A program made the position numbers and the translations under genes. The notes under the pieces were generated by a model. That model did not search any database and was not told the origin of the DNA. It saw nothing but the letters and a program-made list of their open reading frames with translations. Positions 14,984 to 61,471 of a DNA stretch of 64,000 bases are shown in pieces. The DNA is taken from assembly GCA_009746045.1 (NCBI GenBank), contig RPFO01000154.1:3371763-3435762 (forward strand). Reading direction: 5' to 3'. The stretch comes from Mesostigma viride (lineage: Eukaryota > Streptophyta > Mesostigmatophyceae > Mesostigmatales > Mesostigmataceae). Within the stretch, counting starts at the first letter, position 1, and each line of letters starts with the position of its first letter.

Positions 14984-14988
14984 CATAG

Positions 14989-37815: not shown

Positions 37816-38919
37816 GAATCACGATACAACAGCTGTAGTTGACAACATCATGACCGGCACATCTTTCCCCCACCGCTGCTCAACCCGTTCCCCCCAAACT
37901 CCTCCACACTTGCCCACCTTTCCACCCTCCTCCACGGCCCGTTGTGTTTGCAGGCGTTGGCACAAAGGGAGGAGGCCGTGCGAGCCGGGAAACTCACGGT
38001 ATGGTTTGATTTCTAGTTTTGTATTAGGACCCTAGGGTAGCTATGTTATATAGGCATGTCTGACAGCATAGCTCACCATTTCATTACCATGGGATGCTGA
38101 GCATACCATTTCCAGAGAGGTAAGTCAGTCACTCTTCGCAGTTGACAAGTCAGAGAAAGCAATCAAGTGCAGCGTTCACAACTCTTGCCGCTCGTAACCT
38201 TTTGTCTGCCCGGTTTGGCAGCTCCCTGTCTTTGCTTTCTCTCGTATTTCTTTCTTTTGTCTCTTTTCTACATCTTTCTTTGCTAATTCTTGAATATATG
38301 ATGCTATTGTAGCATCCTTCTAGCGCGGATCGCTCTTAATATCCTTCTCGCGCACGTTTCCTCGCTTTTTCTCATGTAAGAGCGTCTTCCCTGCCCATGC
38401 AGCGTGTACCTGGTGTGTGTGGCTCTGCCTTGCCAATCACAACTGACCGACATGCTGGTCAGGCACTGCAGGTCGTTGCCCTTGCGTGTGTGAACCTGCT
38501 GTTTTGGCTGTTCCCATGGCCGCTGCGTGTGTCCGTGAATGATACCATGGGAGGGAGACTTCTCCCATGGGTCCCCTTCGCTGACACTCGTGATGTAGGT
38601 TCGCGTCGACTTGTTTCTCTCACTGTGCCCATATTGGCCTCGCACGGCTTTGTCTCTCATTCCTTGTTTGCATGCGGCGGCGTGTAGACCATCATCTTCA
38701 TCCGAGACCGCAACAGCAAGGGCCAGGAGGTGAGTAATTGCTGAGGGCATGGCTCCTATCCCCTGATGAGTCTAGCGCCATGTACCACCCTCTATGCCTG
38801 CATATAGGTGACGCATTGAAAATGCAAGCATCTTACTAGAAGTAGCACGGGCCTCCGAGGTGAGATTTTGCGCAGGCCTCATGATCCCAATGGACCTGCG
38901 AAGCGCATGGCGCGCATGG
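37816..38919. other. TIR-1 middle region, no recognised gene
   Basis: Only short frames on either strand. A splice-donor-like AGAGGTAAGTCA is at 38115-38126 and may belong to a leader of the downstream gene, but this is a guess. Confidence 0.3.
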
Positions 38920-40612
38920 GCGGCCGGCCGGCGCAGCTGGCATGCGGCGGGGCGGGGCTGTCGACGGGCGGCGGGGCAGGGCCGTCGGCGCGCGGGGGCC
39001 AGCGGCGCTGCCGGTGCGCGCGGGCGGCGGGCCGGCGCACCTGGCATGCGGCGGGGCAGGGCTGTCGACGGGCGGCGGGGCGGGGCAGTCGACGGGCGGC
39101 GGGGCAGGGCCAGCGGCGCTGCCGGCGCGCGTGGGCGGCGGGCCGGCGCAGCTGGCATGCGGCGGGGCGGGGCTGTCGACGGGCGGCGGGGCAGGGCTGT
39201 CGACGGGCAGCGGGGCAGGGCCGTCGGCGCGCGGGGGGCCAGCGGCGCTGCCGGCGCGCGCGGGCGGCGGGCCGGCGCACCTGGCATGCGGTGGGTCGGG
39301 GCTGTCGACGGGCGGCGGGGCGGGGCAGTCGACGGGCGGCGGGGCAGGGCCGTCAGCGCGCGGGGGCCAGCGGCGCTGCCGGCGCGCGTGGGCGGCCGGC
39401 CGGCGCAGCTGGCATGCGGCGGGGCGGGGCAGTCGACGGGCGGCGGGGCGGGGCCAGCGGCGCTGCCGGCGCGCGTGGGCGGCGGGCCGGCGCAGCTGGC
39501 ATGCGGCGGGGCGGGGCTGTCGACGGGCGGCGGGGCAGGGCTGTCGACGGGCGGCGGGGCAGGGCCGTCGGCGCGCGGGGGCCAGCGGCGCTGCCGGCGC
39601 GCGCGGGCGGCGGGCCGGCGCACCTGGCATGCGGTGGGTCGGGGCTGTCGACGGGCGGCGGGGCGGGGCAGTCGACGGGCGGCGGGGCAGGGCCGTCAGC
39701 GCGCGGGGGCCAGCGGCGCTGCCGGCGCGCGTGGGCGGCGGGCCGGCGCAGCTGGCATGCGGCGGGGCGGGGCAGTCGACGGGCGGCGGGGCGGGGCAGC
39801 CGGTGCGCGGCGGGGCGGCGCCGTCGGCGGGCGGCGAGGTGGCGCAGCCAGCGCGCAGCGAGGTGGCAGCGGCGGCGCAGCCTGCATGCGGCGGGGCAGG
39901 GCTGTCGACGGGCGGCGGGGCGGGGCAGTCGACGGGCGGCGGGGCAGGGCCGTCGGCGCGCGGGGGCCAGCGGCGCTGCCGGCGCGCATGGGCGGCGGGC
40001 CGGCGCAGCTGGCATGCGGCGGGGCGGGGCTGTCAACGGGCGGCGAGGCAGGGCCGTCGGCGCGCGGGGGCCAACGGCGCTGCCGGCGCGCGTGGGCGGC
40101 GGGCCGGCGCAGCTGGCATGCGGCGGGGCGGGGCAGTCGACGGGCGGCGGGGCGGGGCAGCCGGTGCGCGGCGGGGCGGCGCCGTCGGCGGGCGGCGAGG
40201 TGGCGCAGCCAGCGCGCAGCGAGGTGGCAGCGGCGGCGCAGCCTGCATGCGGCGGGGCAGGGCTGTCGACGGGCGGCGGGGCGGGGCAGTCGACGGGCGG
40301 CGGGGCAGGGCCGTCGGCGCGCGGGGGGCCAGCGGCGCTGCCGGCGCGCATGGGCGGCGGGCCGGCGCAGCTGGCATGCGGCGGGGCGGGGCTGTCAACG
40401 GGCGGCGAGGCAGGGCCGTCGGCGCGCGGGGGCCAACGGCGCTGCCGGCGCGCGTGGGCGGCGGGCCGGCGCAGCTTGCATGCGGCGGGGCGGGGCAGCC
40501 TGTCGACGGGCTACGGGGCGGGGCAGCCGGCGCGCGGCGGGCCGGCGGCGCAGCCGGCGGGCGGCGGAGCGGCGGAGCGGCGGAGCGGCACAGCCGGTGC
40601 CTGAAAAACGCG
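38920..40612 (+). repeat. GC-rich complex tandem array
   Basis: About 1.7 kb of blocks such as GTCGACGGGCGGCGGGGC and GCGCTGCCGGCGCGC, with a CTGGCATGCGG landmark recurring every 86-130 bp and larger duplications (for example 39786-39960 against 40145-40325). It is open in several frames on both strands, so the long frames here are not taken as proteins. Confidence 0.88.
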
Positions 40613-44341: not shown

Positions 44342-44346
44342 CGTTG

Positions 44347-45044
44347 AGTTAACGCCAAGCGCATTGGCATGTTCCTGATTCGGCATATCTCTGCGATTCC
44401 AGCGGCACCGGAACGAGTTCATTCCGACAAGTATCAAGAAAGTTATGGCGTTCCGACTTCCCGGTCGCGCGCGAGCGCGAGCCGGCTGTTCTTCTAAGTC
44501 GTGCGTGAATATTTGCCGACGACATATGGGGTCGACAGTAATTCCTGGGCTGACAGGAATTAGGTGCTGAACCTACAGCGGTATTGGATTAATACGTCGT
44601 ATGCAGGAAATAGGAACCTTAACCTGTGGTCTGTTGGTACCGCAGGCTTAGTCCTGGACTTCTAGGTGCAGATGCAATAATCACTGTGGACTGTACTCTG
44701 TGGTCACTGTGCCTGTATGGCAGACCTACTGTATAGGATCTGGGCGCTGTACAGGTTGTTAATACTGTACCGGGAGTGTTATTACTGAGCAGGCCTCCTA
44801 GGCTGCTCAGGACTAGCAAAGCACAGTGCACAAGTATATAAAGAATAGGCCAGTGCCAATTGGGCATCTCTTGCGAGCCCGCCTCACGTGTGTTGCCTTG
44901 ACTTGGCAAACTCGTGTATAAGCCTCAAGTGTGTGAGCGCTGTAACATTATCCAATTTTAACAAAGCTCCGTTCCAACCACATCCACACATTGCTGCATA
45001 ATTTGCAACCATATCCTTATACATTGCGTTTAAAAACGTTAACT
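44347..45044 (+). repeat. Cop-C 5' LTR
   Basis: 698 bp, AGTT/AACT ends. The following bases (CAAATTACAAGCAG) do not begin with TGG, so the primer may not be the 3' end of an intact tRNA. Confidence 0.95.
44835..44843 (+). promoter_or_regulatory. Cop-C LTR TATA box
   Basis: TATATAAAG, repeated at 52152-52160 in the 3' LTR, about 200 bp before the LTR end. Confidence 0.5.
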
Positions 45045-45138
45045 CAAATTACAAGCAGTCTCGACGGAACGGCCAGAAGGGTCGTTGCTGTTTGCTGCGT
45101 GCAGCGTTGACGACGCGGTGAAGCTCGTCGGGTGTCGA

Positions 45139-46059
45139 ATGGTGCAGGAAGAACAACGGCAGCAGAATTTCCGGTTTCCTCGGCAGTCTGCTGGTGGTTC
45201 CATTTCGCCTGAATTGCGTCGTGTGGTTCGAGATTTATCTTTATTGCTTGCAGATCGGCCACCTGTTGATCGCAACTTTGTGCAATTCGTCGACGACCAG
45301 GTCGAGGATTGGGAGCGCATTCTGCAGCACGTCCGGACCATCGTCGTTCCGGCACACCGGAGCGTCGACGACATCGAGCAAGAGCTGCACGGTCTGGTCG
45401 GAATCCAGACTGTGATTACAGCCTTAGTTGACCGGGTGCGTGCGGAGTTGGTGGCCAGGCGAGGAGAAGCTGCGGAGCCAGCTGGTGCGGTGCGACGCGA
45501 GTTCGTGCAGGCAGCGCGGGTGCGGGCGTACAACGTGCGTTCGCAGGCGTAATTGGCGACGAGGGATTTGCAGCGGGACCAGTTCGACGTGAGCGACGCG
45601 GGGCGGAGCGCTACAGGCGGCTAGCAGAGGTCGAGGCGGCTGAGGAAGCCATCACCGGAGGTCAGCGTGCGGCACGAGTCGACAGGAATCCGGAGCGAAG
45701 GAGAGTTCCTCTTCAGGAACTGCCCCAACCTCTTCGCGTTCGAGTGACGCGGTGGGAGGAGTTCGCCCCTCTGGGTTACGACAGTGACCTTGAGGTGGGC
45801 TGTGGGGGTCGCTGGTCTAGGCGACGAGGAGCTTGGCGACCGCGAGGTGCCAAGATACAACCCGCGGGGTGGTAACGACGGGTTGTCACCTGTCTACTAC
45901 ACTAACGGTGACGACGCTGTCATCGCGGGCCGACAGCGGGCTGACGACGGTGCTGCTGGCAGCAGGGTGCCAGAGCTCATCATTGTGAGCGACAGCGACA
46001 GTGACAGCGACAAGGAGAACCAGGAGGCGCCCGCGGGTGACCGTGGTGGTCTTGACTGA
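45139..46059 (+). pseudogene. Cop-C ORF0, pre-gag protein of unknown function
   Basis: Begins at ATG 45139 (MVQEEQRQQNFRF), about 95 bp after the LTR. The first part is helical (VDDQVEDWERILQHV, IEQELHGL). An acidic Ser/Asp tail follows (VSDSDSDSDKENQ), ending at TGA 46059. Two one-base deletions relative to the Cop-H copy (near 45515 and 45805) split it into three frames. Cop-H keeps an open version, which supports a real ORF of about 300 residues. No family recognised. It lies about 100 bp upstream of gag and would be the first ORF on the genomic RNA. Confidence 0.6.
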
Positions 46060-46159
46060 GTGGTAACACTTGTCATTTTCCTTCTTGTTCAGCAGCTTAT
46101 ATTGCTTTAATTGCTGTTTGGCCACTTGGCTGGCTGTAGCAGACCTGAACAAGGCCATC

Positions 46160-47327
46160 ATGAGTGAGGGAGCTTTTGACCAACGAGGGCGCGGTGTCGG
46201 CTTTGAGCGGCGCGGCGCTGATATGGATGGACGCGATGGACGCGATGGACGCGGTGGAGTCCCGGCGCTAGGGGACCAGGCTGGCTGCGGATGATCAGAG
46301 CCAAGGATCTCAAGGCGGTCAGAACGCGCCAGCAGCAGACCAAGCAGCGCCTAGGCGGCCGACCGTAGCCGAGGGGTACGCGGTGCTAAGCCAGTTTCAG
46401 TCCATCAAGGACAATTGGCAGCCCCGGGACGCTGAGAGGATGCTGGAGGACATGAACTTGTACACGGACATCTACACCGGTGACAAGCTTCGCATCCTGG
46501 CGTCTAGTGCCTACATAAGGCAGTCGGCAAGGCGGCTGTTCAAGTTCGTCCGGGAGCGACATACAGCGGGGGATACCTGGGCTGCGTTTATGACGCGACT
46601 CAGGGTGTTCCTGAGTGATAAGAGGACCATAGATGGTTCTCACCTGAAACAGGAGTACCTGGACTACAAGCCCATCAAGGGGCAGCTAGTGGTCCACGCC
46701 TTTGAAGACTTCGTCAAGCTGAGGGAGGACGCCATGGCCAAAGGGTTCTTCGTTGCAGATCGGATGGCCATGGGCGACTTTCTCAAGTCGCTGCAGCTGG
46801 ATCCTGTCACGATGGACAACGTGACCATCCACATGCGCCAAGTCCATGGCTGGGCTGCCATGACGGACCAGCTGTATGAGTGTTTCAGCGGCAAGTATGT
46901 AGGCGGTAAGCGCCCACGTCAAGGGGACGAGGAGGCAGCTGAGCCTGCGGTTAAGTCCATGAGGGGATCGGGCCACGGGGGCCCAGCGTCCTCGAGAGGG
47001 CCTGAGACCTCTTCTAGGGGTCGAGGAAGGTCCAGGAGGGGGCGTGGCAGAATGGCTGGACGGGGGACACCTCCGAAGTCGGGACCTCCACAGTCCCAGT
47101 TTGACTTCAAGAGGGTGGGTGGTCCTCCCAAGGCTGGACCCAGCAGTGGGACCTCACGGGACATCAGTCAGGTGGAATGTTATTTCTGCCAAGGGAAGGG
47201 TCACTTCAGGAATGAGTGTCCCTCGTACCTGAGGCAGGAAGGTCAGAGCAAGCCAGCTCAGGGTGGCAGCAAGGAGAAGGCTGGTCCATCCCAGGATAAG
47301 GGCAAGGGCAAGGCTGTTGATCATTGA
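46160..47327 (+). pseudogene. gag: Cop-C gag (one frameshift)
   Basis: Starts MSEGAFDQRGRG at 46160. A one-base loss near 46285 moves the frame to that of the main part (VAEGYAVLSQFQ onwards). The capsid region has RRLFKFVRERH, FMTRLRVFLSDK and GDFLKSLQLDP. An Arg/Gly-rich stretch and the knuckle CYFCQGKGHFRNEC (47178-47219) follow, then a Lys-rich end. It stops at TGA 47325-47327, in frame with pol. Gag forms the particle and packages RNA. The Cop-H copy lacks the early shift. Confidence 0.88.
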
Positions 47328-50300
47328 CTTGAGCCTGCACACATCCCTGAACCCTGGAGGGTGCCCCCAGGGGTGTGTAATGTAGCTGCTAGTGACGGCA
47401 GTGAGGGGCAGCCCCATGCTCTAGTGACAGAGCCTATTGGACACGATGGGGCAAGCTTGGTTACCACAGAGAGTATGCCAGCTGTAGCTGCAGTGGTTAC
47501 TCGCCAACGTGCCCGCCATGGCGGTGCTGAGCCTGAGGTAGGACCTGGTGCTGTGGACCCAGGTGGATCTCAGAAGCATTCTGACCGTGCAGGACTGGCA
47601 CAGGATGGTCAGGATGAGGATAGGGCTGGAGACAGTCTGACAGGCACGACCCTGGTGCCTCCTGTACATAAGGGATCTGTACATACCTTGAGTGCTAATA
47701 ATGACAATAAAAGATTTTCTCTCTTGTATGACATTGCCTCAAGGTTGCATACCATGTTTGGCCATGCAGCTCAGTCTTTGCAAGTTGCTAGACGGCTGGG
47801 AGGAAGTGAGTTGTACTCCATCTGCCAACAGGTTGCTCAAGCTTGCAAGTGCAGGCTAGTTGCTAGAAAGCCCAAGCAGTCTCATGCCAGGTCTCCTATT
47901 TTGCAGCCAGGCCATGTGCAGGTAGATATTCAGAGAATCAGGGGTTTGAAGCTGCTGGTGGCAGTGGACAGATATACCAAGTACAAGACCCTAGAGATCC
48001 TGCCTGACATGGAGAAGCCTACATTGATTGCTGCTCTGAAGTTGACAAGGAGCAGGTACCCTGGGTTGGAGTTGTTGCAGTGTGACATTCAGTTTGAGTG
48101 CTGTGAGAACCTGCCAGAGTTTCCAGAGTTGCTGATTACACCCAGGGAGAGCCACGGCCAGCAAGGGGTGGTGGAGAGAGCCATCCAAGAGATCAAGACT
48201 GTGCTGCTGGTGGAGAGGATTCCAAGGACGTCATCTGCCATTGTGACATCTGCATGGCTACGTTCTGTGGAGGATAGGCTGAACCTCAGGACTCCCATGT
48301 TCTTTGGTGACATTGCCATCAATCCTCTTATGCTGCACACCAGGATGCTGCCAGCTGATGCTGAGCAGGCATGGAAGGAGAAGCTAGAGGCCAAGTTCCT
48401 CAAGCTGAGGCAGAAAGACAAGGGCTGGAGTGTCCTAGAACCTAACGTTGGACAACAGGTTGTTGTGTGGAAGGAGCCAAGCTTTCCAGGGAAACGTGGC
48501 AGCTGGCATGATGGGGTGGTGACCCGAGTAGAAGCCGCTGGCCATAAGTGCTGGGTGGCCATTGATGGCTCCCAAGCAGTGCACCGTCTGTCCTGGTCAA
48601 AGATCCGTCCCCGGGGAGGTAATCAAGGAGACCTCTTCCAGGTGCCCGTTGGTGTACAAGGCGGGGGTGACGTGGAGCTTCCTGATCAGGGTGCTACAGC
48701 TGTATCGAGCCCTCAGGGTGACCCTGGCCCGGCCCCTGGGGTACCTTCACATACGGTGGTTGGGCAAGCAGGCGGACAGGCTGCACCTCCGGAACGGCCC
48801 GACACCAGGCCTAGGGGTGTGCGTCTATCAGATATTGTACAGGCTTTGCAAAGAGCCAAGAAGGAGCCTAAGGTGTCCAAGCTTGTCCAGTTGGATGAAC
48901 CTGAGGTAGCTGCCATGGAGATAGATACCAATGCACAGGTTTCTGTCATGGGACCTCAGCATACAGGAGAACTGCTGGTCGGAGAACCAAGTTGCCCCTG
49001 GGTGTCTGATTTCAGTGGTAGGACGCATCTAAGGGTGTTGGGAGAGGTTACTGCCCCTGTCATGGGTGTGGATGTGACCTTCCTTGTCCTAGAGGACTAT
49101 GATGGCCCTGTGATTTTGGGTCAGAATTTTCTGGGCAATCCTGGGATTTCTATCAGAGCTACAGCTCTGAGAAGAGATGGCTGGGGGATGATTCCCCTAG
49201 AAAATTTCAGGACAACATTTCCAATCAGGTGCAGGGCCAAGCCGGTCAAGGGTGTAAAATGGGATGAAGGGGAGGTGCCCCCAGCAGCCAGTTTGGTGAT
49301 TCCAGCTGTGTTGCACCCCAGCAGTATTGGCATAACTCACAGGAGCCTTGCTGCACACTCTCCTTTGACATATGACCAGCTAGTCCAAGAGATGAGCTCG
49401 CCTACTTTGTTTGAGGCTTGGAAGCTCGCCTTCTCCAAGGCATTGGAGGAGTGGTTGCAGTTTGAGTGTGCTGCACCAACAGACAGACGTCCCCCAGCAT
49501 CAAGGAAGCTTGCTTTGAGATTTGTGCTGAAGAGGAAGGTTGTGGATGAGGTATCAGTGCCCCATGTCAGGCCTGTCCTGAATGAGTATCACGGCACGGG
49601 GAGTCTGCCAGGAGAGGAGCTGTACACGCCAGGGATGCTACACGACACATGGAGAATTTTGCTATGTCTCTACGTGGGGTTGCTGAACAGGGGAGCAGCT
49701 ATGTCATCAGTGCTGCTGGACTTCAAGAGGGCATTTTTAAAATCTGATCCAGAAGTGGCCAGGAGGGTGTGGAAGCAGGATGAGCCTTACTGTGTTGAGG
49801 TGCCTGCCATCTGGAAGCTGGAGCTGCATCAACAATTCCTGGTTATTCTGAAGGGCCTGGAAGGACTCAGGTCGAGCCCAATCATCTGGAGACTCACGCT
49901 GCAGGAAGCTCTGATCAGTGAGTGTGGCTTGAGAGTGTCTTCAGTTGATCCCTGTTTGCTGCTGGCCCAATGGGAGGGTCTGCCAGTGTATGCTAGTTTG
50001 CATGGAGATGATCTGCATTTGCTAGCCCCCACGACCTGGCTGAAGAAGTTTATTCCTGTCATCAGTGGCAAGTTTTCACTGGGCAAGGAGCTGTGGCAGG
50101 AGCCCAACAAGCCTGTAGTGTTCTGTGGAATGCAGGCTACCCTGTTCAGGAGGGATGGGGAGTGGAGTATCAGGCTTCAGGCTGGAGGAGATTATAAACA
50201 GACCATTGTGAAGGCCTTGCCAGAGAAGATCACCCAGGCTGCAGGACCTGAGTTGAGAGGCATGTGGGCCTGGTTTGCCAGCATCTGTGGTCCGTCTTTG

Positions 50301-50918
50301 ATGGTCCATAGCAGAATGCCTGATGAGGTGCTTGAGGATGAGAAGCCTCGAGTCATAGCCCGATTGGTGGAGAGTACCCCTGATCTGATTTTGTCTGGGA
50401 TTGACTTTGCCCAGCCTATCACCTTGGAGATCTTTGTTGACAGTTCCATGGATGCTCGCCAGGTTACCAAGGTCAGGGGGAGATCTGCTGCTCTGTTTGC
50501 TTTTTATCAGAGCAGGGCAAGTTTGTTCAGCTGGTACAGCAGACTGCAGAAGAGGGTCTGTATCAGTTCAGATGTGGCAGAATGCAGGGCCATATGCGAG
50601 GGGATCCAGTCCAGCTTGTACATAAAGGAGTTAATGCTGGAGCTGGCTTCAGTTACCCCTTGGACCTTGCAGATGGAGACGTTGTTGCTAACAGACAGCA
50701 TGGGTATGGTCCAGTTTGTTCACAAGCAGCTGGCCAGAAGCCGGGACCTGGATTATTTGTTGCTGAAGGAGTTGGCCAGTTTGGTTGACTTGAAGCATAT
50801 CCCTGGCGAGGAGAACCCTGCTGATGCATTGACAAAGCTGCCACACAAGGCCCCAGCCCAGTACAATGTACTGAGGAAGCTCATGAATGCTGACTGTCAA
50901 GTCGGTCTATCTGTCTAA
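47328..50918 (+). CDS. pol: Cop-C pol: integrase, protease-like, RT, RNase H in one frame
   Basis: Open from the codon after the gag UGA to 50918. There is no ATG until 47475, so read-through from gag is likely. Residues are counted from 47361. Integrase zinc ligands are His130, His135, Cys162 and Cys164. The core is Asp189, Asp242, Glu272 (QGVVERAI), with an SH3-like tail at 350-417. The protease-like domain has Asp522 in EIDTNAQVSV and ILGQNFL at 585-591. RT has Asp787 in DFKRAFLK and HGDD at 881-884. RNase H has Asp1027, Glu1074, Asp1112 and Asp1155 (ADALTK). RT and RNase H are clearly copia-type. The domain order, DTN motif, HGDD box and short second spacing of the integrase triad are not. 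Confidence 0.93.
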   Translation, partial: LEPAHIPEPWRVPPGVCNVAASDGSEGQPHALVTEPIGHDGASLVTTESMPAVAAVVTRQRARHGGAEPEVGPGAVDPGGSQKHSDRAGLAQDGQDEDRAGDSLTGTTLVPPVHKGSVHTLSANNDNKRFSLLYDIASRLHTMFGHAAQSLQVARRLGGSELYSICQQVAQACKCRLVARKPKQSHARSPILQPGHVQVDIQRIRGLKLLVAVDRYTKYKTLEILPDMEKPTLIAALKLTRSRYPGLELLQCDIQFECCENLPEFPELLITPRESHGQQGVVERAIQEIKTVLLVERIPRTSSAIVTSAWLRSVEDRLNLRTPMFFGDIAINPLMLHTRMLPADAEQAWKEKLEAKFLKLRQKDKGWSVLEPNVGQQVVVWKEPSFPGKRGSWHDGVVTRVEAAGHKCWVAIDGSQAVHRLSWSKIRPRGGNQGDLFQVPVGVQGGGDVELPDQGATAVSSPQGDPGPAPGVPSHTVVGQAGGQAAPPERPDTRPRGVRLSDIVQALQRAKKEPKVSKLVQLDEPEVAAMEIDTNAQVSVMGPQHTGELLVGEPSCPWVSDFSGRTHLRVLGEVTAPVMGVDVTFLVLEDYDGPVILGQNFLGNPGISIRATALRRDGWGMIPLENFRTTFPIRCRAKPVKGVKWDEGEVPPAASLVIPAVLHPSSIGITHRSLAAHSPLTYDQLVQEMSSPTLFEAWKLAFSKALEEWLQFECAAPTDRRPPASRKLALRFVLKRKVVDEVSVPHVRPVLNEYHGTGSLPGEELYTPGMLHDTWRILLCLYVGLLNRGAAMSSVLLDFKRAFLKSDPEVARRVWKQDEPYCVEVPAIWKLELHQQFLVILKGLEGLRSSPIIWRLTLQEALISECGLRVSSVDPCLLLAQWEGLPVYASLHGDDLHLLAPTTWLKKFIPVISGKFSLGKELWQEPNKPVVFCGMQATLFRRDGEWSIRLQAGGDYKQTIVKALPEKITQAAGPELRGMWAWFASICGPSLMVHSRMPDEVLEDEKPRVIARLVESTPDLILSGIDFAQPITLEIFVDSSMDARQVTKVRGRSAALFAFYQSRASLFSWYSRLQKRVCISSDVAECRAICEGIQSSLYIKELMLELASVTPWTLQMETLLLTDSMGMVQFVHKQLARSRDLDYLLLKELASLVDLKHIPGEENPADALTKLPHKAPAQYNVLRKLMNADCQVGLSV

Positions 50919-51665
50919 AAGCTGAGAGCTGGGTGCTTAAGTCTCTGGATATCAGGCTGGGAGCTTGATTGTACATAATCCTGAGCACACCTTGAGGGGT
51001 GAGACATGTCTCTGGTGTGGGAATGTCTGACATTGTCTCTGATGGAGAGATGTCTATCTGGGGTTTTCATCTCAGTCTGAGGTTTCCCCAGATCTGTGGT
51101 TTGTGGGCGGGGTTCGATTCCCTGGTGCCGTCTTAAGGCGGAGTTTCACGGACTGGCTGACCCATCCACCATGCTGGTGAGGTGGCGACAGGTCCCCTGA
51201 TTTTCCACGGTTGGAACGAGTATAGGAGCTTGTGTTTTGCATGTGCTTCGCGTAGATGTTGTGTCTGGTTCGATAAGGGGCAGCAGACCGGCGCCGACTC
51301 CCGTCTGGGGGTCAGCAATGTTTTCTGATGAGCTGTTGTGGGTGATCTGTGGGGTTTCGCCTAAGGTCCTGAAGGTTGTACATACTTCTCAAGTTCTTAG
51401 CTGAACACCTATGGGCTGCCACAGTTGGCCAACCTCTTGTACATGGGTAACACAACGAGCCTCCCGTGAAGGGATAGGGACTCATTGTAATTTGTTTGTG
51501 CTCCTGAACCAGTATGGGTGCTATGTACATATAATAAGGAATCCAAGCTGACTGTCATGCCCAGCGGGTTGTGACTTGTAGTCGGGGAGGATGTCCAGTA
51601 CCCATTGTGTGTGTTTGTATGTAGACTTGTGTGAGCTGCTACAGCTCAAGAAAAGAAAGGATTGG
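50919..51665 (+). other. Cop-C 3' untranslated region and polypurine tract
   Basis: Non-coding. A T-arm-like GGGGTTCGATTCCC lies at about 51110-51123. It ends in AAGAAAAGAAAGGATTGG right before the LTR. Confidence 0.65.
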
Positions 51666-52361
51666 AGTTAACGCCAAGCGCATTGGCGTGATCCTGATTC
51701 GGCATATCTCTGCGATTCCAGCGGCACCGGAACGAGTTCATTCCGACAAGTATCAAGAAAGTTATGGCGTTCCGACTTCCCGGTCGCGCGCGAGCGCGAG
51801 CCGGCTGTTCTTCTAAGTCGGACGTGAATATTTGCCGACGACATATGGGGTCGACAGTAATTCCTGGGCTGACAGGAATTAGGTGCTGAACCTACGACGG
51901 TATTGGATTAATACGTCGTACGCAGGAAATAGGAACCTTAACCTGTGGTCTGTTGGTACCGCAGGCTTAGTCCTGGACTTCTAGGTGCAGATGCAATAAT
52001 CACTGTGGACTGTACTCTGTGGTCACTGTGCCTGTATGGCAGACCTACTGTATAGGATCTGGGCGCTGTACAGGTAGTGAATACTGTACCGGGGTGTTAT
52101 TACTGAGCAGGCCTCCTAGGCTGCTCAGGACTAGCAAGCACAGTGCACAAGTATATAAAGAATAGGCCAGTGCCAATTGGGCATCTCTTGCGAGCCCGCC
52201 TCACGTGTGTTGCCTTGACTTGGCAAACTCGTGTATAAGCCTCAAGTGTGTGAGCGCTGTAACATTATCCAATTTTAACAAAGCTCCGTTCCAACCACAT
52301 TCACACATAATTTGCTGCATTGCAACCATATCCTTATACATTGCGTTTAAAAACGTTAACT
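51666..52361 (+). repeat. Cop-C 3' LTR
   Basis: 696 bp. It differs from the 5' copy by scattered substitutions and small indels (for example near 51822, 51896, 52078 and 52310). Confidence 0.95.
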
Positions 52362-52751
52362 CGTTGTCCATCGTGATAGGATCCAGCTGCAGCGACTTGA
52401 GAAAGTCGCCCATGGCCATCCTGTCTGCACAGAAGAAACCTTTGGCCATGGCGTCCTCCCTCAGCTTGCAGAAGTCTTCAAAGGCGTGGACCACCAACTG
52501 CCCCTTGATGGGCTTGTAGTCCAGGTACTCCTGCTTCAGGTGAGAACCATCTATGGTCCTCTTATCACTTAGGAACACCCTGAGGCGCGTCATGAACGCA
52601 GCCCAGGAACCCCCCGCTGTATGTCGCTCCCGGACGAACTTGAACAGCCGCCTTGCCGACTGCCGTATGTAGGCACAGTCTACTAGACGCCAGAATGCGA
52701 AGCTTGTCACCGGTGTAGATGTCCGTGTACAAGTTCATGTCCTCCAGCATC
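52362..52751 (-). pseudogene. gag: Cop-H Gag, middle part
   Basis: Codes LEDMNLYTDIYTGDKLRIL through RRLFKFVRERH to GDFLKSLQLDPITMDN, with a shift near 52680. The left end is the Cop-C TSD; the right end is the Cop-D TSD (GCATC, 52747-52751). Frames that run on into the Cop-C LTR are accidental. Confidence 0.88.
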
Positions 52752-53208
52752 AGTTAGATGAGATGCTTAGGCTGACACACGGATTTCCGGCCTGCGCGCC
52801 GCGTATTGCCTACCGCGGCTGAGCGGGACACCTCAGTACTGTACGGCAGGGTGTACGGTACTGAGGTGTCATGTGGACTGATGTGCGGTTAGTGCCAGAT
52901 TGTGCCTAGACTCTAGCTCGACCCGCCAGGTCCGGGTTATCCGGGTCTGACGGGCCGAGTGTAGTTGATGCTAGTGACGTGGTCGCATGGCATTGCAGTG
53001 TACAGTTGTCCACTGGTGAGGTGCTGCAGGTAGCACCGCCATAGGCATATAGGCGTAGCACTGGGGAGTGCCGCAGCACCCGAGTTTGCCCAGACGTTCC
53101 ATTCTGAGCCCTCAGCTTACACTACTCTCTCATTGTATTATTGCTAATACAACCATCATTCCATTTCAGCTTCGGCAGTTGTCCATCGTCGTGAGACTCG
53201 ATCCAACT
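52752..53208 (+). repeat. Cop-D 5' LTR
   Basis: 457 bp. The next bases are TGGACTGAAAAGC, so a TGG-type primer-binding site is possible here. It contains a strong inverted repeat (CACCTCAGTACTGTAC and its complement near 52830-52870). Confidence 0.95.
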
Positions 53209-53249
53209 TGGACTGAAAAGCTTTTTTATTTTTTCGAAAAACAAAAAAT

Positions 53250-55007
53250 ATGGCTTCCAACAACGGCAACGACAACAACAACAAGGGGAAGGCGCCTGCC
53301 AGGCGCACCTCACCCCGACTCGCGCCGGAGGGCACGCCCTCCACCAACGATGCAGCGAGGGTGACGCCCAACGTCACCTTCCGCACGGTGGTCGCCGACC
53401 ACCCCAGGCGTCGGACCCCGCAGGTGGGGCCCGGCGCCCGGGGGATGGCGAGCGGTCGTCCGTTTGCCACTGGCGGTTCGTCCGCCATGGCACCTGGGGG
53501 GCAGGTCCCCCGGGCACGTAATTCCCCCGTCGCAGGTGACGGGGGTCGTGAACGAAGTGACTCCTCGGAGGAGGATGGGGAGGTGCAGCCTGCGAGGCCA
53601 CGGCCTTCGCTCGAGATTTCGTCACAGACGCCTGCGACGTCTGGTAATCTCTCCGTGGGCCGACAGATGGCCATCATGGACATTGACCGGTATGGGGAGC
53701 ATGTTCCGCCACCTGTCGCGTTCGGGCGCGTACCCCATCTTCTCCCCATTGGGGAGGACGACATCCCAGCGTTCATTTCGGTGAACGGCTGGATCATTCG
53801 GCAACGTTTTCAGTTGACGGCAGATGAGCCGATACATGCGATTGAGGTTCATCGGACGCAAACGATGATCGAGCATCGTCTGCGGATGCAGTTCCACCTG
53901 ATCCAGGTGGCAGTTTGGCTGTGGTGTTTCACCAATAGGCCGAGGCGAAACCCCGGCACTGTGGATCAGTGGGCGTCCAGGCAGCGTCAGAGAGAGGCGC
54001 TGCGAGTGGTCGCCACGCAGGAGATCTCGCTGACTCCGTTGGGGCCGTGGCCCCAAGTCACGCCAGTTGGCTGGGGCCCGGAGAGGCGTGAGGCGGCTGC
54101 GATGCCGCCTGCGACGGAGCGCGGGGGGGCAGGTAACACGCCCATGGGTGGTGAAACCACCCAGGACCCTCTGGCAGGTCAGAGGGTCCAACCTCAGCAG
54201 CGGGCTCCCCCGCCCAGCGTGGGGGGCCAGGTGGCTGAGGAGGCCACCGGGGTCGCAGGGACCCCGGCGGCGACGCCAGCTCCCGGGGTCGCAGGGACCC
54301 CGGCAGCGACGCCGGCGCCTCCGGCGCTGGCGGGGGATGCAGCCCCCATGGAGGGTGTCACTGGCACCTCCAGCGGCTCTGGGGGGCAGGCACCCTCTAG
54401 CCGCAACAAGGACAAGGCCCTGGCAGGGCCGGAGGGGCCTCAGGGTCCCACCTTCGCAGGGCAGCAGCCAGAACGGCTGGAAGGCGATCTGGAAGGTCGG
54501 GACTTCATCACCCTGGGTGATGAGTCTGTGTGGCGTGCCATACAGGCCGCCACAGCCTCCTTCCGTGGGCTGGCCGACCGGAGCCAGCAGATGCACGTCG
54601 CGGAGGCGGGCAGCCTGGTGTGTGCGATTATCACGCACATCCTGGGCTTGCCCAACCTCCAAGCGGGCACACGCAGGGTGTGCGACGACTTGCTGCCTGC
54701 CCTGCAGGCTCTCCTCTCAGGAAGGAGGGTGCAGGGTAACAGGGTTCGCCTGGTGCGACTCCTGGAGCTCCTGCACAATGCCATCCTGTCAGGGGCGGGT
54801 AGGTGGTTGCCTACCTGGCTGCATCATGATGTTACTAACCCTACTGACGATGAAGTGTCTCTCTCTCCCACTTTCCATGATTGGGAGGAGGCCCGCAGCA
54901 GGAGGCGGGAAGTCACACATACTCACACCCCCACCCAGCCCACCCCTATGTTGCCTACCCTCCTACACAGCCCATGCTTGCCTCTCCTGCTCAGCTCACT
55001 CAAGTAG
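53250..55007 (+). CDS. Cop-D ORF1, N-terminal Gag or pre-gag protein
   Basis: 585 codons from an ATG 41 bp after the LTR (MASNNGNDNNNKGKAPARRT). The start is Asn/Pro/Arg-rich and disordered. A folded-looking part follows (GWIIRQRFQL, MQFHLIQVAVWLWCF), then Pro/Ala/Gly-rich repeats (GVAGTPAATPAP twice), then a helical part (SFRGLADRSQQMHVAEAGSL, RLVRLLELLHNAIL). It overlaps the capsid frame at 54881-55007, which lies in the -1 frame, so it may be fused to capsid by frameshifting. It matches the position of the Cop-B pre-gag ORF and Cop-C ORF0. No domain family recognised. Confidence 0.7.
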   Translation: MASNNGNDNNNKGKAPARRTSPRLAPEGTPSTNDAARVTPNVTFRTVVADHPRRRTPQVGPGARGMASGRPFATGGSSAMAPGGQVPRARNSPVAGDGGRERSDSSEEDGEVQPARPRPSLEISSQTPATSGNLSVGRQMAIMDIDRYGEHVPPPVAFGRVPHLLPIGEDDIPAFISVNGWIIRQRFQLTADEPIHAIEVHRTQTMIEHRLRMQFHLIQVAVWLWCFTNRPRRNPGTVDQWASRQRQREALRVVATQEISLTPLGPWPQVTPVGWGPERREAAAMPPATERGGAGNTPMGGETTQDPLAGQRVQPQQRAPPPSVGGQVAEEATGVAGTPAATPAPGVAGTPAATPAPPALAGDAAPMEGVTGTSSGSGGQAPSSRNKDKALAGPEGPQGPTFAGQQPERLEGDLEGRDFITLGDESVWRAIQAATASFRGLADRSQQMHVAEAGSLVCAIITHILGLPNLQAGTRRVCDDLLPALQALLSGRRVQGNRVRLVRLLELLHNAILSGAGRWLPTWLHHDVTNPTDDEVSLSPTFHDWEEARSRRREVTHTHTPTQPTPMLPTLLHSPCLPLLLSSLK

Positions 55008-55924
55008 CACTTCCCTCTCAGCATGTCTCTCCTGTGAATGCTGCAGCAGCAACACCATCTTCTCCCTCTCCCCCTGCATCCCCCTCTAGGTGGCCCACTT
55101 ACAATGAAAACCGTCCTGTGGATAGGATTAATGTCAGGGGGCTGCCTGAGGGGTATACTAGGGAGCAGGGGAATCATGCACTTCTCTCCCTTCAGCTGGC
55201 TAGGGAGGAACTGAATGTCAAGAATTGGTTTGGATCTCTCATGCAGGGGGATTTTTACCATCAGTCCTCCTCTCAGATTCAGAATCTCATCCTTGTCTTC
55301 CAGCGTAGGTATCCCAAGTGGCAGGACACGCAGGCTAGGGCAGTTTGGGAGGCTTTCATGAAGGAGTTAACTGACCTCCTCTCCACCCCCTCATCTGTGG
55401 ACATTTATGGGGCATTCAGGTGGGTAGAGGAATACAGGGTCACATCAGTGGACTATGTGGCTGAGACAAAGAAATATGAGCTAGCCATCAAAGCACGTCC
55501 AGATGTCCAGCAGCTAGATCACAAGTTCTTGCTGCGTTCCTTCCTTGAGAAACTCAAACTTGACAAAAACACCTACGCTATGCTTGCAACAGGAATGGCA
55601 AAGTACTGGGAGGACATGAAGGAGGCATTGGATTATATCAAGCTGGCCTTGGCCCCCCTTAGCCAGGGGGCCATGGGCACCTCTGTAAAGAGGGTCAGGG
55701 GGGAAGAGAGGGAGGAGGAGGATAGGGAGAGGGAAGACAGGAGCAAGAGGCCTGTCACCATGGCAGAAGTGAAGTCCCTGCTGGGACAAATGTTTAAGGG
55801 AAAGGGCAAGGGCAAGGGCAAGGGCAAGGGCAAGGGCAGGGGCTGGGGCAAGGGCAAGGGTAAGGGGCAGTCTCCCTCCAAGGGGGGCAGCTCCAGCAAC
55901 AACAACAACAACAACAGCAACAGC

Positions 55925-56019
<95 letters not shown>

Positions 56020-56230
56020 GAAGCAGGACAAGGAGGACAAGTCTTCTCAGCGGTGCACCCGCTGTGGCATGAGGTACCATGAGCGACCACCTGCCACAAG
56101 AACGTGGACGAGCTGGGGCATTTGGACGTCCTGTGCCACAAGTGCCACGGGCCGCCCCACGGTGACCCCAAGGACTGCAAGCGGCCTCCTTACGGCAAGA
56201 AGTGTGAGTCTCCCTCTCATGCTGGCTTGA
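54881..56230 (+). CDS. gag: Cop-D Gag capsid with N-rich linker and first knuckle
   Basis: Capsid-like helices run from NVRGLPEGYTREQG through LILVFQRRYPKWQD and VWEAFMKEL to YWEDMKEALDYIKL. A charged stretch and a GK repeat (KGKGKGKGKGKG) follow, then about 40 Asn coded by a CAA/AAC tract, then CTRCGMRYHER, the start of a zinc knuckle. Beyond this the frame loses the motif, while the pol frame from 56104 continues the zinc cluster, so the junction is a -1 shift near 56090-56110. Known role: particle assembly and RNA binding. Confidence 0.78.
55893..56020 (+). repeat. AAC trinucleotide tract
   Basis: Long AAC/CAA run encoding poly-Asn in Gag. Cop-B has a shorter, interrupted counterpart at 24510-24680. 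Confidence 0.9.
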
Positions 56231-58524
56231 GTGTGCCTGCTTCACCTCTTTCATCTGCATGCCCCACTGTCAGAGCAGTGAGCAGTTCTGGAAAGGTGCT
56301 ACAGCTGGTTTCAGAAGATTATGTCTCTAAACCAACCTTCACATCTATGGTTCCCAAGGTGTGCAGAGTGTCCCCATCAGAGGATGCTCATATCAGTTTT
56401 CAGGAGCTTGCTTTGCAGTTGCATTTCCTTTATGGGCATGAAGTGAGTGCAGAGGTGGTGGCAGCAGCAATAGGGGGGGCAGCACTCAGACGTGCATGCC
56501 AGGTGGTCAGATCCCACTGCCAGCATTGTCAGTTCAATGCACCCAAACCCCCTAAGTGGCATGTAGCTACCCCACCTAAGTGCAAGGGCAGGGTGGTAGG
56601 AGATGTCTTTCATATCAAAGGACAATCTTACTTGGCACTTAAAGATGCATGGTCAAGGTACACAACCATTGAACCATTACCTGGAATGGACAAGACACAG
56701 TTGCTCAGGGCTCTCTTGATTGCTCAGGCCAGGTACTACCCTGTGGAGGCATTGTTACTGGATCAGCAGTTCACGTGTCTTGCCAATGAACCAGGGTGTG
56801 AGGCTATTGATCTGGCTGGGCTAGAAGATCATGAGAGGCAAGGCATTATTGAAAGGGCCATCAGGTCCATTAAAACCCTTGTAGCCAAGGAAGATGGCAA
56901 TCTGCTGGCTGACAGTGGGTCATATGCTGACAGAGCTCTGTGGTCCACCAGGTTGTGCCAAGTCCTCAACAGGAGGCCACTCATGAAAACCCCACAAGGG
57001 GTGATCATTACACCAGATGGATTGCATGCAGGCATTTATCCACCTGAGGTACTAGCCCTATACAACGCACAGCGAGCACAGACAGCTAGCAGGTTAGCTG
57101 TCAAGGATGCAAAGCATCCACGTCCCACCTTCAGAGAAGGGGATCAGGTCCTATTCTACAAGGAGTCGGGACTAGGCAAGGTGGGTACCTGGCATGGGCC
57201 AGCCACCATCCTAAAGTTTAACACCACTGGCAGGACAGTGTTAGTTAAACACAATGACACGGGAAAGATTCACAGGTGTTCACCTCACAGGATGAAATTG
57301 TATTTTCCAACTGTGTCAGACGTGGCAGAGGAGGAAGAGCTGTTGGCCGACAGCCCTGTACAGTTGCCTGGCATCCCAGCGTTGCCCAGTGAGTGGTTGT
57401 TTGGAACACCCACTGGTGAGTGTGAGAGCCACACCCACTGTGACACCCAGGTCACCCTTGATGATTGTAGGCAGTCACTGCAGGCTTGGCCCCCTGCAGC
57501 AGAGGGTCACATTGGCAAAACAGGTGATCAGCAACCTATCACCTCTTCAAGTGTGAACATAGCTCAGCCACTAGCTGCACCTTCCAAACGCAGCCTAGCA
57601 GACGCTGTTTGCATTTTACAAGCAGCTCATAGAGCTAAAGCTCAAACTGCTGCAGGATCAGCTAAGGTGGGGAAGGTTGGGCAGCATGACAATAGCCCAT
57701 TTATGGTTGCAGTGGACACACAAGCCCAGGTCAGCATTATCAGTGCCCTGGCTGTGCCCCATATGCCTTTGGAACCTTCACCCTGGCACCATGTGGCTGA
57801 TTTCTCAGGGCAGTCATCCCTCAAGGTATTAGGTCAGGTCATGTTGACTATACTCGGTATCCCCACTCCTTTTCAGGTATTGGAAGGTTATAAAGGGAAT
57901 GCTTTGTTGGGGGATCCTTTTCTCTGTTACCCTGGTGTCATTATATCCAGTAATAGACTATCCATCCAGGACCTGGGTGGTGTTGATCTGAATCATTTCA
58001 AAATTTCTCTTGAAAAACTTCTTAACACCAACATTGCTTCTGTAAAATTTGCTACACCCAAGTATGCCCCAGGGCAAGAACCCTGTGTGGCAGACTTGGT
58101 TCATAACCAAAAACTTCATCCCACCTCATTTGGATTGGGCAAGCATGATATGGCTAAAATGTCTCCTCTTTCTTATGAACAGATAGAGCAAGACTGTCGC
58201 ACACACATAGGATTCCTAAAATGGGTGGAGGCCTTCAACAAGGCCAGGGAAGAATGGGTAGTGCCAGATCCTCTTAGTCCTTCTCATACTCCACCTGTCA
58301 CACCTATTGACAAAAAGCCTGCAGGGTGCAAGCACTTGCGCCTGAAGTTTGTGTGTAAACATAAGCCAGCAGCAGATGGGTCAGTCATTTTCCATGCTAG
58401 ACCTTGTGTGACAGAGTTCAAGGGCACCACTGATCTGACAGAGGCAGAGTTGTACACGCCAGGCATTCAGCAAACATCCCTGTCTGTCTTTCTTGCTGTC
58501 TGTCTTTGTGGGTCATCTCAATGA
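56104..58524 (+). CDS. pol: Cop-D pol part 1: zinc cluster, integrase, protease-like domain, RT start
   Basis: The frame opens inside the second zinc cluster (LCHKCHGPPHGDPKDC). Integrase has zinc ligands in LHFLYGHE and HCQHC, the first Asp in VVGDVFHI, the second in LLLDQQF and Glu in GIIERAI, 29 residues apart. The tail KVGTWHGPATI follows. The protease-like domain has AVDTQAQVSIIS, then DFSGQSSLKVLGQ and ALLGDPF. The RT N-terminus (LRLKFVCKHKP) follows, and the frame ends at 58524 after a TGTC-repeat shift. As in the other Cop elements, no protease precedes integrase. Confidence 0.9.
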   Translation: MDELGHLDVLCHKCHGPPHGDPKDCKRPPYGKKCESPSHAGLSVPASPLSSACPTVRAVSSSGKVLQLVSEDYVSKPTFTSMVPKVCRVSPSEDAHISFQELALQLHFLYGHEVSAEVVAAAIGGAALRRACQVVRSHCQHCQFNAPKPPKWHVATPPKCKGRVVGDVFHIKGQSYLALKDAWSRYTTIEPLPGMDKTQLLRALLIAQARYYPVEALLLDQQFTCLANEPGCEAIDLAGLEDHERQGIIERAIRSIKTLVAKEDGNLLADSGSYADRALWSTRLCQVLNRRPLMKTPQGVIITPDGLHAGIYPPEVLALYNAQRAQTASRLAVKDAKHPRPTFREGDQVLFYKESGLGKVGTWHGPATILKFNTTGRTVLVKHNDTGKIHRCSPHRMKLYFPTVSDVAEEEELLADSPVQLPGIPALPSEWLFGTPTGECESHTHCDTQVTLDDCRQSLQAWPPAAEGHIGKTGDQQPITSSSVNIAQPLAAPSKRSLADAVCILQAAHRAKAQTAAGSAKVGKVGQHDNSPFMVAVDTQAQVSIISALAVPHMPLEPSPWHHVADFSGQSSLKVLGQVMLTILGIPTPFQVLEGYKGNALLGDPFLCYPGVIISSNRLSIQDLGGVDLNHFKISLEKLLNTNIASVKFATPKYAPGQEPCVADLVHNQKLHPTSFGLGKHDMAKMSPLSYEQIEQDCRTHIGFLKWVEAFNKAREEWVVPDPLSPSHTPPVTPIDKKPAGCKHLRLKFVCKHKPAADGSVIFHARPCVTEFKGTTDLTEAELYTPGIQQTSLSVFLAVCLCGSSQ

Positions 58525-61471
58525 TGGGGATGACTATGTATGTAAGGCTACAGACATTAAAAGGGCTTTCCTGAAAGGCTCACCTGAGATAGCACAACAA
58601 GTGTGGCATGGTCAGGTGTATGTAGTCTCTACTCCCAGAGTTCGGGCAAAACACATCCCTCAGCAGTACCTGAAAGCTAACATAGGTGTTGAAGGGCTGC
58701 AATCAGCTCCTCGAATTTTCAGGATGTCAGCTCAGGCTGTGTTTGAAAAGCTAGGGGCTAGATATGATGACATAGACCCTTGCTTCTTTGTGGTCCCACA
58801 CCCTCATGGCATACTCACCTTTGTGTGGCATGGGGATGATCAGCTGATTGCTGGGCCAAGGCGTGCTGTAGATGATTTTATTCAACAAGTGTCACAGCAT
58901 TTTGAGATTGGCAAGCAAGTAGAGCTGGGCACCACTGCCATAAAATTTTGTGGCACAATGTTACAACTCCAGCAGCATCAAAACCAGTGGGTGTGTGCAC
59001 TTTATTCTCCCAATGATTACATGCACAGCTGCTTGGAAGTTTTGCAAACAAAAATCAAACCTGGAGCCTGTCCTACCATTAGAGGCAAGCTGGGGTGGTT
59101 GTGCTCAACGTGTGCACCTCACCTGGCTGTGGTTAGCAGAGTTGATGATGATGTCTTGATGCAAGTAGGTCACAAAACCATCACCAAAACTCTCCAGGAA
59201 GGCCCTCCACCTTATCTTGCATTCTTTGGATCTCCACAAAACCATTCACATCCAAGCTATGATGGATAGTTCCATGGAGTCCAGGCAGATTACCAAGTTG
59301 CAGGCAAGGGAGTCAGGCTTGTATTTTGTGCAGAATGATGATGCACCCCTGTCTCTCATTTCATGGTACAGCCGGTTGCATAGACGCAAGGCTGTCAGCA
59401 GCAATGCTGCTGAGTGCAGGGCAGTGGTGTCAGCAGTGCTTCATGCCAGGTACTTGAATCATGTGCTGGTTTGGTTGCAGATGCAAGCAGGCAGCAATGC
59501 TGGGGTGGTGGCACACTTGCTCACTGACAGTCAGTCAGTCCTCAGTTTCCTTGCTAACCCCTATGCTGTGCACACTGATCTTGACTGGGTGGTCCTTAAC
59601 CCCTAAATGGGCGGAAATGCTGCCGATAAATCGGCAGTAACTCACCTATTTTGTAAACCAGCCCCTGTACAACCTAGCAATATCCAATGGCTGTCCTTGG
59701 GGGGCAAGCATGTCCATGAGTTGCCCTAAGCCATGATATATCACAACCTCACATATATTCATCGTAGGCCATGTATAACTGCCGTCAAAGTCAGGGGGGT
59801 CAAGACGAGCGTTTTCATTTTTGGTAGAATGTGCATTTTGAATTATGTTGTAAGAGCTAGGCACCTACCACTTCAGGGATGATAAACAATTAGTTGCTGA
59901 ACAGTTTGAGCCATTGGGGTCATCATTTGGGTGGGTATACCAGCAGTTACACCCAGTACAGCCCATAGGGGTACCGTTGGTAAAAAGCAACCAAGGGGGT
60001 AGGAGTGGGCATACTACCTACTAATACCTACTAATATGGCCCCCAACCATGCCAAACAATACATTTCCCTTCCACAATTATGGGGAAACATAACTGCATC
60101 ATCACACTGCCCTTACATGGCACCTATGTGCAGGTGCCACCTTGTCCATGCACGTAGGTAACGTGGTACGGATACCCTACGCAAGGCATGCATTCTAGGA
60201 GGCAGCCACCAACAAACTAGTGATTTTAAGCCTATTTCAGCCTGCCCTAGCAAGGATAAACTAGGCCTAAGCTGCTATAGCTTTCCAGGTGATGGCCAGC
60301 ACACCTGGTGGCACATGCTGACAATGGGAAGCTTCTACTCACCGGTTACATGCTTGATGATGCCACAGAGACCAGCCAACTGCCTCACACTCATGCAATA
60401 TGTGTGTGGGAAATGTATAACAAACATATATGGAGGTATTCAAACCCATACAGCCTCTAAAACTTATCACCATCACCCTGTGGCAGGTCAACTGACTGAG
60501 GGAAGCATCTAAGAAGGGTGTTTTAGAAAGGGGCCAGGCCAGGGTCAAGAAAGAGCATGAATAATCCAAAAAGAATGTGCTACACAAGCTAGAACGTATA
60601 TATAAACGTCAAACATCGATAGGAAAACGATGCTTAAGCTTTACCAGGCATGGATGGCGTTACCTTGGCCCAGGCGGTGGCCGCAAAATGGCGCATTTCG
60701 GCACACCAAATTTGTGCAGCATGGTCGCTGGATTCGGCGATTTCTGGCCACCCTTGCACGTTTACGACTAATATGTATCATAAAAAGTACAAAGAAACCG
60801 ATATATCCTTTAAAATACGCCGGAAAGGTATTGCTGTCAACGTTTCTATCGTCCGGCCTGATCGCAGTTTTTTCCAGCAAGAACGCTGCCGACACCTATC
60901 AAATGGCATTCCCGCGAACCAAAAATTGGCCTGTATGATCTTTAGGACGTATAAAATCAATATCCTAAGTTTGGCCAGAAAATTCGAACGCAAACGTAAA
61001 TGCCATGCGTGGGCGCAAGCCGCCATGGCCAGGTCGTCGTTTTCCGGAATGCACGTTGTACGTGAAAAAGTACCCTGACCCCTTGTACTTTGACGGTCTG
61101 GAACACCTGTTAAACTTGGTCAAAATATAGCAAACCCTAGTATCATGTTCTGGAGAAACTTATAAACTTTCATTCTTCTCAGCTAAACGTTTCCTAATTC
61201 CCAATAGTATTCTCGCAAACTGGTCCCCCGAGTAGGTGCCGACAAATCGGCTGTAAGTCACTTTTTGGCGGAAAATCGGCAGCAAGACCATTTAGGGGTT
61301 AAACAGGAGTCCACCTACTGGGAGTCCACCCGTCACGTGGAGGACAAACACAACGCTGCTGATGCACTCACTAAAGTGCCTCAGCAGGCAGCTGACCAAT
61401 ATCAGCTGTTGTACCACTTGATGAACCCCTATGGCAAGCAGGCAACCCTGCCCCATCGGGGGGACGCCTAG
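58493..61471 (+). pseudogene. pol: Cop-D pol part 2: RT and RNase H, split by TTAA-2
   Basis: 58493-59269 gives RT with DIKRAFLKGS and WHGDDQLIAGP. A shift near 59220 leads to RNase H (MDSSMESRQ, AECRAVV, LTDSQSV). At 59596 the codons for LDWVVL run into TTAA-2. After 61302 the frame resumes with KQESTYWE and ends in ADALTKVPQQ at 61471. Excision of TTAA-2 restores the codons exactly. Confidence 0.9.
59600..61298. mobile_element. TTAA-2, piggyBac-like non-autonomous element
   Basis: TTAA at 59596-59599 and 61299-61302 flanks inverted ends CCCCTAAATGG (59600-59610) and CCATTTAGGGG (61288-61298). Just inside lie palindromes such as CTGCCGATAAATCGGCAG (59620-59637) and related motifs near the right end. 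CC-starting ends plus TTAA fit piggyBac. The 1,699 bp hold only short frames (best 60650-61078, 142 codons, unrecognised), so no transposase is encoded. Confidence 0.9.

Follow-up and report, generated by a model that had tools for sequence, protein, structure and literature searches.

The window analysed here is a stretch of 64,000 nucleotides from Mesostigma viride (GenBank assembly GCA_009746045.1, contig RPFO01000154.1, positions 3,371,763 to 3,435,762 of the forward strand). It contains a complete long terminal repeat (LTR) retrotransposon, Cop-C, at 44347-52361, inserted into the gag of an opposite-strand copy from its own family. In the Pol of Cop-C a retropepsin-like domain lies behind the integrase and ahead of a copia-type reverse transcriptase (RT), and the same order recurs in diverged relatives. 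The element is built as follows:

44342-44346 and 52362-52366: 5-bp target duplication CGTTG, flanking both LTRs
44347-45044, plus strand: 5' LTR, starting AGTTAACG and ending CGTTAACT
45045-46271, plus strand: leader of 1.2 kb from LTR to gag, with short broken open frames
46272-47324, plus strand: Gag frame, 351 aa, with a single CCHC zinc knuckle at residues 302-318 (PF00098, E 1.3e-4)
47325-47327, plus strand: in-frame TGA at the Gag/Pol junction (TGA CTT GAG), a candidate readthrough stop
47328-50918, plus strand: Pol frame, 1196 aa, with integrase, retropepsin-like domain, RT and RNase H
47745-47855 (approximate), plus strand: HHCC-type zinc region of the integrase, read from the sequence
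about 47916-48197, plus strand: D, D, E core of the integrase (rve E 0.098, below cut-off; motifs also read in Cop-A, Cop-B and Cop-D)
48489-48614, plus strand: weak SH3/Agenet-like module past the integrase core (PF05641 E 0.011, below cut-off)
48885-49217 (approximate), plus strand: retropepsin-like domain, with D-T-N at 48924-48932, flap motif DFSG, and ILG at 49113
49503-50162 (approximate), plus strand: copia-type RT, catalytic HGDD at 50001-50012
50415-50888 (approximate), plus strand: RNase H, with SSxxAECRA and NPADALTK motifs and acidic motifs from 50430
51648-51665, plus strand: polypurine tract ahead of the 3' LTR
51666-52361, plus strand: 3' LTR, identical to the 5' LTR in 677 of 698 aligned columns

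Pol is in the same frame as Gag, resumes past the TGA and stays open to 50915. The order integrase, retropepsin-like domain, RT and RNase H in a single open frame, proposed in the first-pass annotation of the window, is borne out over all 1196 amino acids by landmarks present in the sequence: D-T-N-A-Q-V-S lies within an 8-mer at 48921, ILGQNFL at 49113, and the AFL motif of RT within a 9-mer at 49713. The leader holds partial open frames of 169 and 103 amino acids.

The same annotation extended this order to four further elements of the window, Cop-A, Cop-B, Cop-D and Cop-H. It holds for the first three; Cop-H is a copy from the C family, so that the diverged families number four and not five. 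A search of the window with the Cop-C Pol (tblastn) returned Cop-A as pieces 39-57% identical, Cop-B as pieces of 27-33%, and Cop-D as pieces of 30-33% plus a short one of 41%, together with near-identical C copies including Cop-H; the pieces of Cop-A, Cop-B and Cop-D are ordered as in C, and their frames are broken. P0001, an unbroken protein of 1214 aa from an independent ENA contig, is 62% identical to Cop-C and shares the order, with integrase motifs at 158-309, D-T-N at 558, HGDD at 917 and RNase H motifs from 1060. The corresponding features of the window elements are:

1636-1956, plus strand: Cop-A retropepsin-like domain (D-T-N-S-Q-V-S), PF13975 E 0.031 for 1645-1956
15378-15858, plus strand: Cop-B 5' LTR (AGTTAG...CTAACT), mate at 29262-29746, target duplication GGGCC
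26812-27135, plus strand: Cop-B retropepsin-like domain (D-T-Q-A-Q-V-S), no Pfam match for the domain alone
30515-33645, minus strand: Cop-H, C-family copy with D-T-N-A-Q-V-S, DNA 98% identical to C, broken by a 1-kb inverted repeat
52752-53208, plus strand: Cop-D 5' LTR (AGTTAG...CCAACT), identical to 62545-63001, target duplication GCATC
57691-58011, plus strand: Cop-D retropepsin-like domain (D-T-Q-A-Q-V-S), no Pfam match for the domain alone

LTR ends of the form AGTTA...AACT and 5-bp duplications (GGGCC, CGTTG, GCATC) are common to Cop-B, Cop-C and Cop-D, and the ends look like an additional mark of the lineage; for Cop-A no LTRs were found. Although the two LTRs of Cop-D (52752-63001) are identical throughout, the pol between them is scattered over several frames; the element may be either a defective copy mobilised in trans or the product of assembly indels. 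The repeat that splits the Cop-H integrase, at 32498-33536, is a near-perfect inverted repeat of about 1 kb (98% self-complementary).

The protein searches, with the best 8000 candidates scored in each, gave eight matches in one case and one each in two others; P0001 was the only match to the search with integrase-first rows, and no relative of it was found among viral contigs. The database relatives include P0002, 99% identical to C; P0003, a Mesostigma viride gene model 98.6% identical to the Cop-A RT over 361 residues; and P0007, a JGI record. Others stand under the dinoflagellate names Prorocentrum lima (P0005, P0006) and Lingulodinium polyedra (P0008), and may reflect either transfer or contaminated cultures.

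Searching the genome (439,911,974 bases) with the Cop-C Pol, we scored the best 39 of 10,180 candidates. All 39, spread over many contigs, are near-identical and open over the full 1196 amino acids, which excludes chance or misassembly as the source of the frame; as the scored copies are the best matches, the sample leans to intact Pol. The 28 copies read in detail, the window copy among them, all carry TGA CTTGAG, MEIDTNAQVSVM (with D-T-N kept), LHGDDL and the full 1196 codons, and differ from the window copy at 0-16 of 3588 nucleotides. Copies so alike, with their key motifs kept, indicate that the family has moved recently. The distinct codon variants over the frame comprise 27 synonymous and 10 non-synonymous ones, none of them in codons 521-631. 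An age mismatch was noted in this family: the two LTRs of Cop-C differ by 19 substitutions over 698 columns, and the 28 Pol copies by no more than 16 per 3588 nucleotides from Cop-C.

Several comparisons bear on the nature of the displaced domain. Trimmed to the domain, P0001 matched the Pfam family PF13975 with E 0.0015 (model positions 14-91 of 92) and PF13650, of the same clan, with 0.08; Cop-A matched PF13975 as its sole family (E 0.031, positions 11-90 of 92), and Cop-C matched it with E 0.11 (positions 14-91 of 92), behind an unrelated family at 0.10. The gypsy protease of the window falls into the same family (E 1.5e-10). When a six-row profile was compared with PDB sequences, the retropepsin ASPRV1 occupied the first four of five rows (E 0.21-0.22; the fifth was unrelated), its catalytic DSGAQVSV aligned on DTNAQVSV; the whole Cop-C Pol had no match in PDB. 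DFSG lies 28 residues from the D in C, A, B and D, and ILG lies 63 residues from it in C, B and D, with ILGQNF of Cop-A aligned in the same column; for comparison, the window gypsy element has its flap motif at 32 and LLG at 69. The C-terminal motif of the focal domains is ILG or LLG, and ILS, as distinct from an ILG-type motif, is usual for copia proteases (PMC2642776). Thus the profile matches, though weak, are concordant in three of five members, the motif spacing agrees with a retropepsin, and neither Pol_BBD nor ILS of a copia-type protease was seen, the focal domains matching PF13975 or nothing. The domain does not look like a relocated copia protease and resembles instead the gypsy or cellular retropepsin type.

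The remainder of Pol is of copia type: the RT is of the RVT_2 kind (P0004, E 1.6e-12, above cut-off), the Cop-C RT aligns with the RVT_2-matching relatives, and integrase precedes RT in one pol. The gypsy arrangement, with an RVT_1 RT and the integrase past RNase H, was not seen; the RT matches were to RVT_2 only and the integrase comes first. An RT tree of 17 rows (14 distinct), made of nine focal rows, seven canonical copia rows (four distinct) and a gypsy outgroup, all references being from this genome, separated the nine focal rows from the others by a branch of modest support (67/71) and grouped the canonical rows with 91/90. It supports a separation from canonical copia and not a firm placement. 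With four diverged families sharing the order and the RT tree setting them apart, the proposal of a distinct lineage in place of a local rearrangement is upheld.

The controls were canonical copia elements from the same genome. The best 150 of 1981 candidates in an RVT_2 search were scored, all with E <=6e-41; eight of these loci were taken with flanks, and four proteins were scanned. Each of the four has Pol_BBD, gag_pre-integrase, rve, SH3 and RVT_2 in that sequence, in agreement with the canonical order of protease, integrase and RT assumed at the outset, and this reading shows that the detection works. Their active sites are DTGATYHM in L032-L034 (by motif search) and DSAASSHM in L029-L031, so that the latter families have D-S-A in place of D-[ST]-G. 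LTR pairs were measured in four loci: L035 has TG...CA, L032 has TG...CA with one extra matching base, L030 ends in CA with its start bounded by masked bases, and L033 starts with TG, its end lying outside the sequence reached.

The catalytic triplet of the focal domains is D-T-N (Cop-C, Cop-A, P0001) or D-T-Q (Cop-B, Cop-D). Its Asp and Thr are invariant in the five members that cover the site, and D-[ST]-G occurs there in none of them. It had been stated that Cop-C lacks D-[ST]-G between the Gag knuckle and the integrase; in fact the triplet is absent from the whole of its Gag and Pol frames. Elsewhere on the sense strand of Cop-C it occurs three times, the open stretches around it being 6, 20 and 55 residues long; a scan for a four-residue motif had a single match, within a stretch of 15 residues. 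These scans reject the idea that Cop-C encodes a canonical protease in Gag, in Pol or in a long open stretch of another sense frame. Short other-frame pieces contain the triplet twice in Cop-A and once in Cop-B. Since the Pol frame of Cop-D has two (56911 and 57256), past the integrase core, ahead of the retropepsin-like domain and lacking retropepsin context, a blanket statement that the lineage has no D-[ST]-G fails. No protease was found upstream of the integrase by motif and Pfam scans, diverged proteases not being otherwise searched.

The further claim that processing of such a polyprotein must differ, since integrase precedes the protease, does not follow, as position alone does not set cleavage. 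Loss of the catalytic-loop Gly gives stronger ground to suspect altered processing than does the position of the domain. The third active-site position is variable in copia, as the D-S-A of canonical families here shows; the protease of Tnt1 has D-T-A. Because Asp-Thr is retained and Cop-C has no other recognisable protease, we put the prospect that the predicted D-T-N/Q domain is active at a little over even.

Judged from these sequences, Cop-C, Cop-A, Cop-B, Cop-D and P0001 probably constitute a distinct copia branch, in which a retropepsin of gypsy or cellular type, placed between integrase and RT, has taken over from the branch's own protease. The copia-type protease normally found ahead of integrase is missing, and would have been replaced either via recombination with a gypsy-type element or via capture of a cellular retropepsin. 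Gag-Pol of Cop-C would then be made by UGA readthrough. Retropepsins function as dimers, and the domain would pair two Gag-Pol chains, with the D-T-N/Q site cutting integrase from RT-RNase H. Insertions have 5-bp duplications and AGTTA...AACT ends, as observed for Cop-B, Cop-C and Cop-D. The order, the motif changes, the intact copies, the target duplications and the polypurine tract are all supported by the sequence.

The Gag-Pol junction of Cop-C, UGA CUU G in RNA, is suggestive of readthrough. UGA-CUA is a leaky stop context, and the Gag-knuckle frame of Cop-A likewise closes with TGA, followed by CTA G; the Cop-A junction is only suggestive, because its Gag frame soon meets another stop and the integrase lies in a different frame. 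Gag knuckle and integrase share one frame without a stop in Cop-B and lie in different frames in Cop-D.

A number of observations weigh against a working retropepsin in a distinct copia branch. All protease matches to Pfam are below the curated cut-offs; the trimmed domains of Cop-B and Cop-D had no Pfam match, longer pieces of Cop-C and Cop-A matched no protease family, and whole P0001 reached PF13975 only with 0.086. Another Pfam scan gave a protease match in two of four members, with a best E of 0.091. A four-row profile against PDB found no retropepsin and a single unrelated match, and no significant match emerged from profile-profile comparison when four canonical copia proteins and a gypsy protein were the targets. 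RVT_2 matches were below cut-off for Cop-D (2.1e-5), Cop-A (0.0013), Cop-B (0.0017) and P0001 (0.014), and Cop-C matched no RT family in Pfam; besides the modest support for the focal RT grouping, the gypsy outgroup is very long, which carries a long-branch warning. Asn and Gln are larger residues, and we know of no active precedent for either of them replacing the catalytic-loop Gly. The RNA surrounding the TGA is predicted to fold no more strongly than shuffled sequences do (z -0.98 for Cop-C, -0.49 for Cop-A). Finally, a Gag frame open for more than 300 codons stands in the 1500 bases upstream in two of eight copies (the window copy and one other), and Gag is broken in the remaining six, all of L001-L008 having an intact Pol. 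The broken Gags hint that Pol is perhaps expressed or selected separately, or they reflect only the bias of the sample to intact Pol.

The alternative that survives best, a serious possibility though in our judgement the lesser one, keeps the same lineage and domain and regards the retropepsin as catalytically dead, with a structural role such as dimerising RT in the manner of the foamy virus PR-RT (protease-RT). Processing would then be left to a host protease, or to other elements supplying theirs in trans, or would be unneeded. D-T-N/Q replaces D-[ST]-G in all five members, no other D-[ST]-G is present in Cop-C Gag or Pol, and the canonical copia and gypsy elements of the genome have protease domains that could help in trans. 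Yet Asp and Thr are invariant although the members are only 31-63% identical to C in the domain, the D-S-A of some canonical copia elements here indicates that the third position can vary, and the 28 copies have no variant in the 111 protease codons, numbers too few for a test. We regard as improbable that the region is an unrelated beta domain joining integrase and RT: matches below the Pfam cut-offs, two of five members matching nothing and the failure of the four-row profile to find retropepsins would suit it, but P0001 has PF13975 as its best Pfam family and Cop-A matches no other, PF13650 also matches P0001, the six-row profile has its best matches in PDB to a retropepsin aligned at the catalytic Asp, and DT..QVS, DFSG and ILG stand in retropepsin-like spacing. 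Ordinary copia elements, locally rearranged or misassembled in a window dense in nested insertions, are scarcely credible given 39 open copies on many contigs and an order common to Cop-A, Cop-B and Cop-D (27-57% identical) and to P0001 on its independent contig.

With canonical Ty1/copia elements (Pseudoviridae; L029-L036 here) the focal lineage shares an RVT_2-type RT, RNase H motifs, integrase before RT, a CCHC Gag and LTRs with short target duplications. It differs in its protease, which is of gypsy type after the integrase with D-T-N/Q, whereas Pol_BBD precedes the integrase in all four canonical proteins, in the RT motif (HGDD against HVDD) and in the LTR ends (AGTTA...AACT against TG...CA, seen cleanly in L035). 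Ty3/gypsy elements (Metaviridae) share a PF13975-type retropepsin immediately before RT; unlike them, the focal elements have integrase ahead of RT, and the RT of the relatives is RVT_2 and not RVT_1. In Gmr1-type gypsy elements the protease still comes first. These elements have a copia-like pol order with integrase before RT (PMC2774666, PMC3601003), and they are the nearest precedent found for a pol-domain order that crosses the line between copia and gypsy. Gmr1 is a gypsy element with its integrase moved; in contrast, the focal element is a copia element with its protease after the integrase. The foamy virus integrase is C-terminal and the protease active site canonical. The likeness lies in a protease domain that adjoins RT, the mature protein being PR-RT with only integrase released (PMC8402755).

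LTR-retrotransposon superfamilies are defined by domain order and protease type, and the focal lineage breaks this rule: it is a recently mobile lineage of several families, with copia RT and integrase and a gypsy-type protease past the integrase. No published description of this order was found in the open-access literature in so far as its texts were accessible, subscription journals being mostly outside. In one large plant survey, every element with its domains in an unexpected order was taken to be probably mispredicted and was dropped (PMC6317226), and such lineages may have gone unseen for this reason. The conserved D-T-N/Q poses the question of whether an aspartic protease can function lacking the Gly, or whether an element of this kind can manage with no protease of its own. 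Tentatively, and with somewhat less than even confidence, a working retropepsin with a D-T-N/Q loop between integrase and RT would represent a new active-site class of aspartic protease; the lineage carrying it would be a copia/gypsy chimera of the sort that at least one large survey discarded on account of domain order.

Elsewhere in the window, identical 573-bp repeats (TGTTACG...GTAACA) at 4188-4760 and 14412-14984 bracket a minus-strand gypsy element with its Pol at 9121-11598; their identity points either to a very recent insertion or to homogenisation of the two repeats. Arrays of repeat units occupy 34353-35779, 36628-37456 and 38909-40590, and the first and last of them contain long open frames on both strands.

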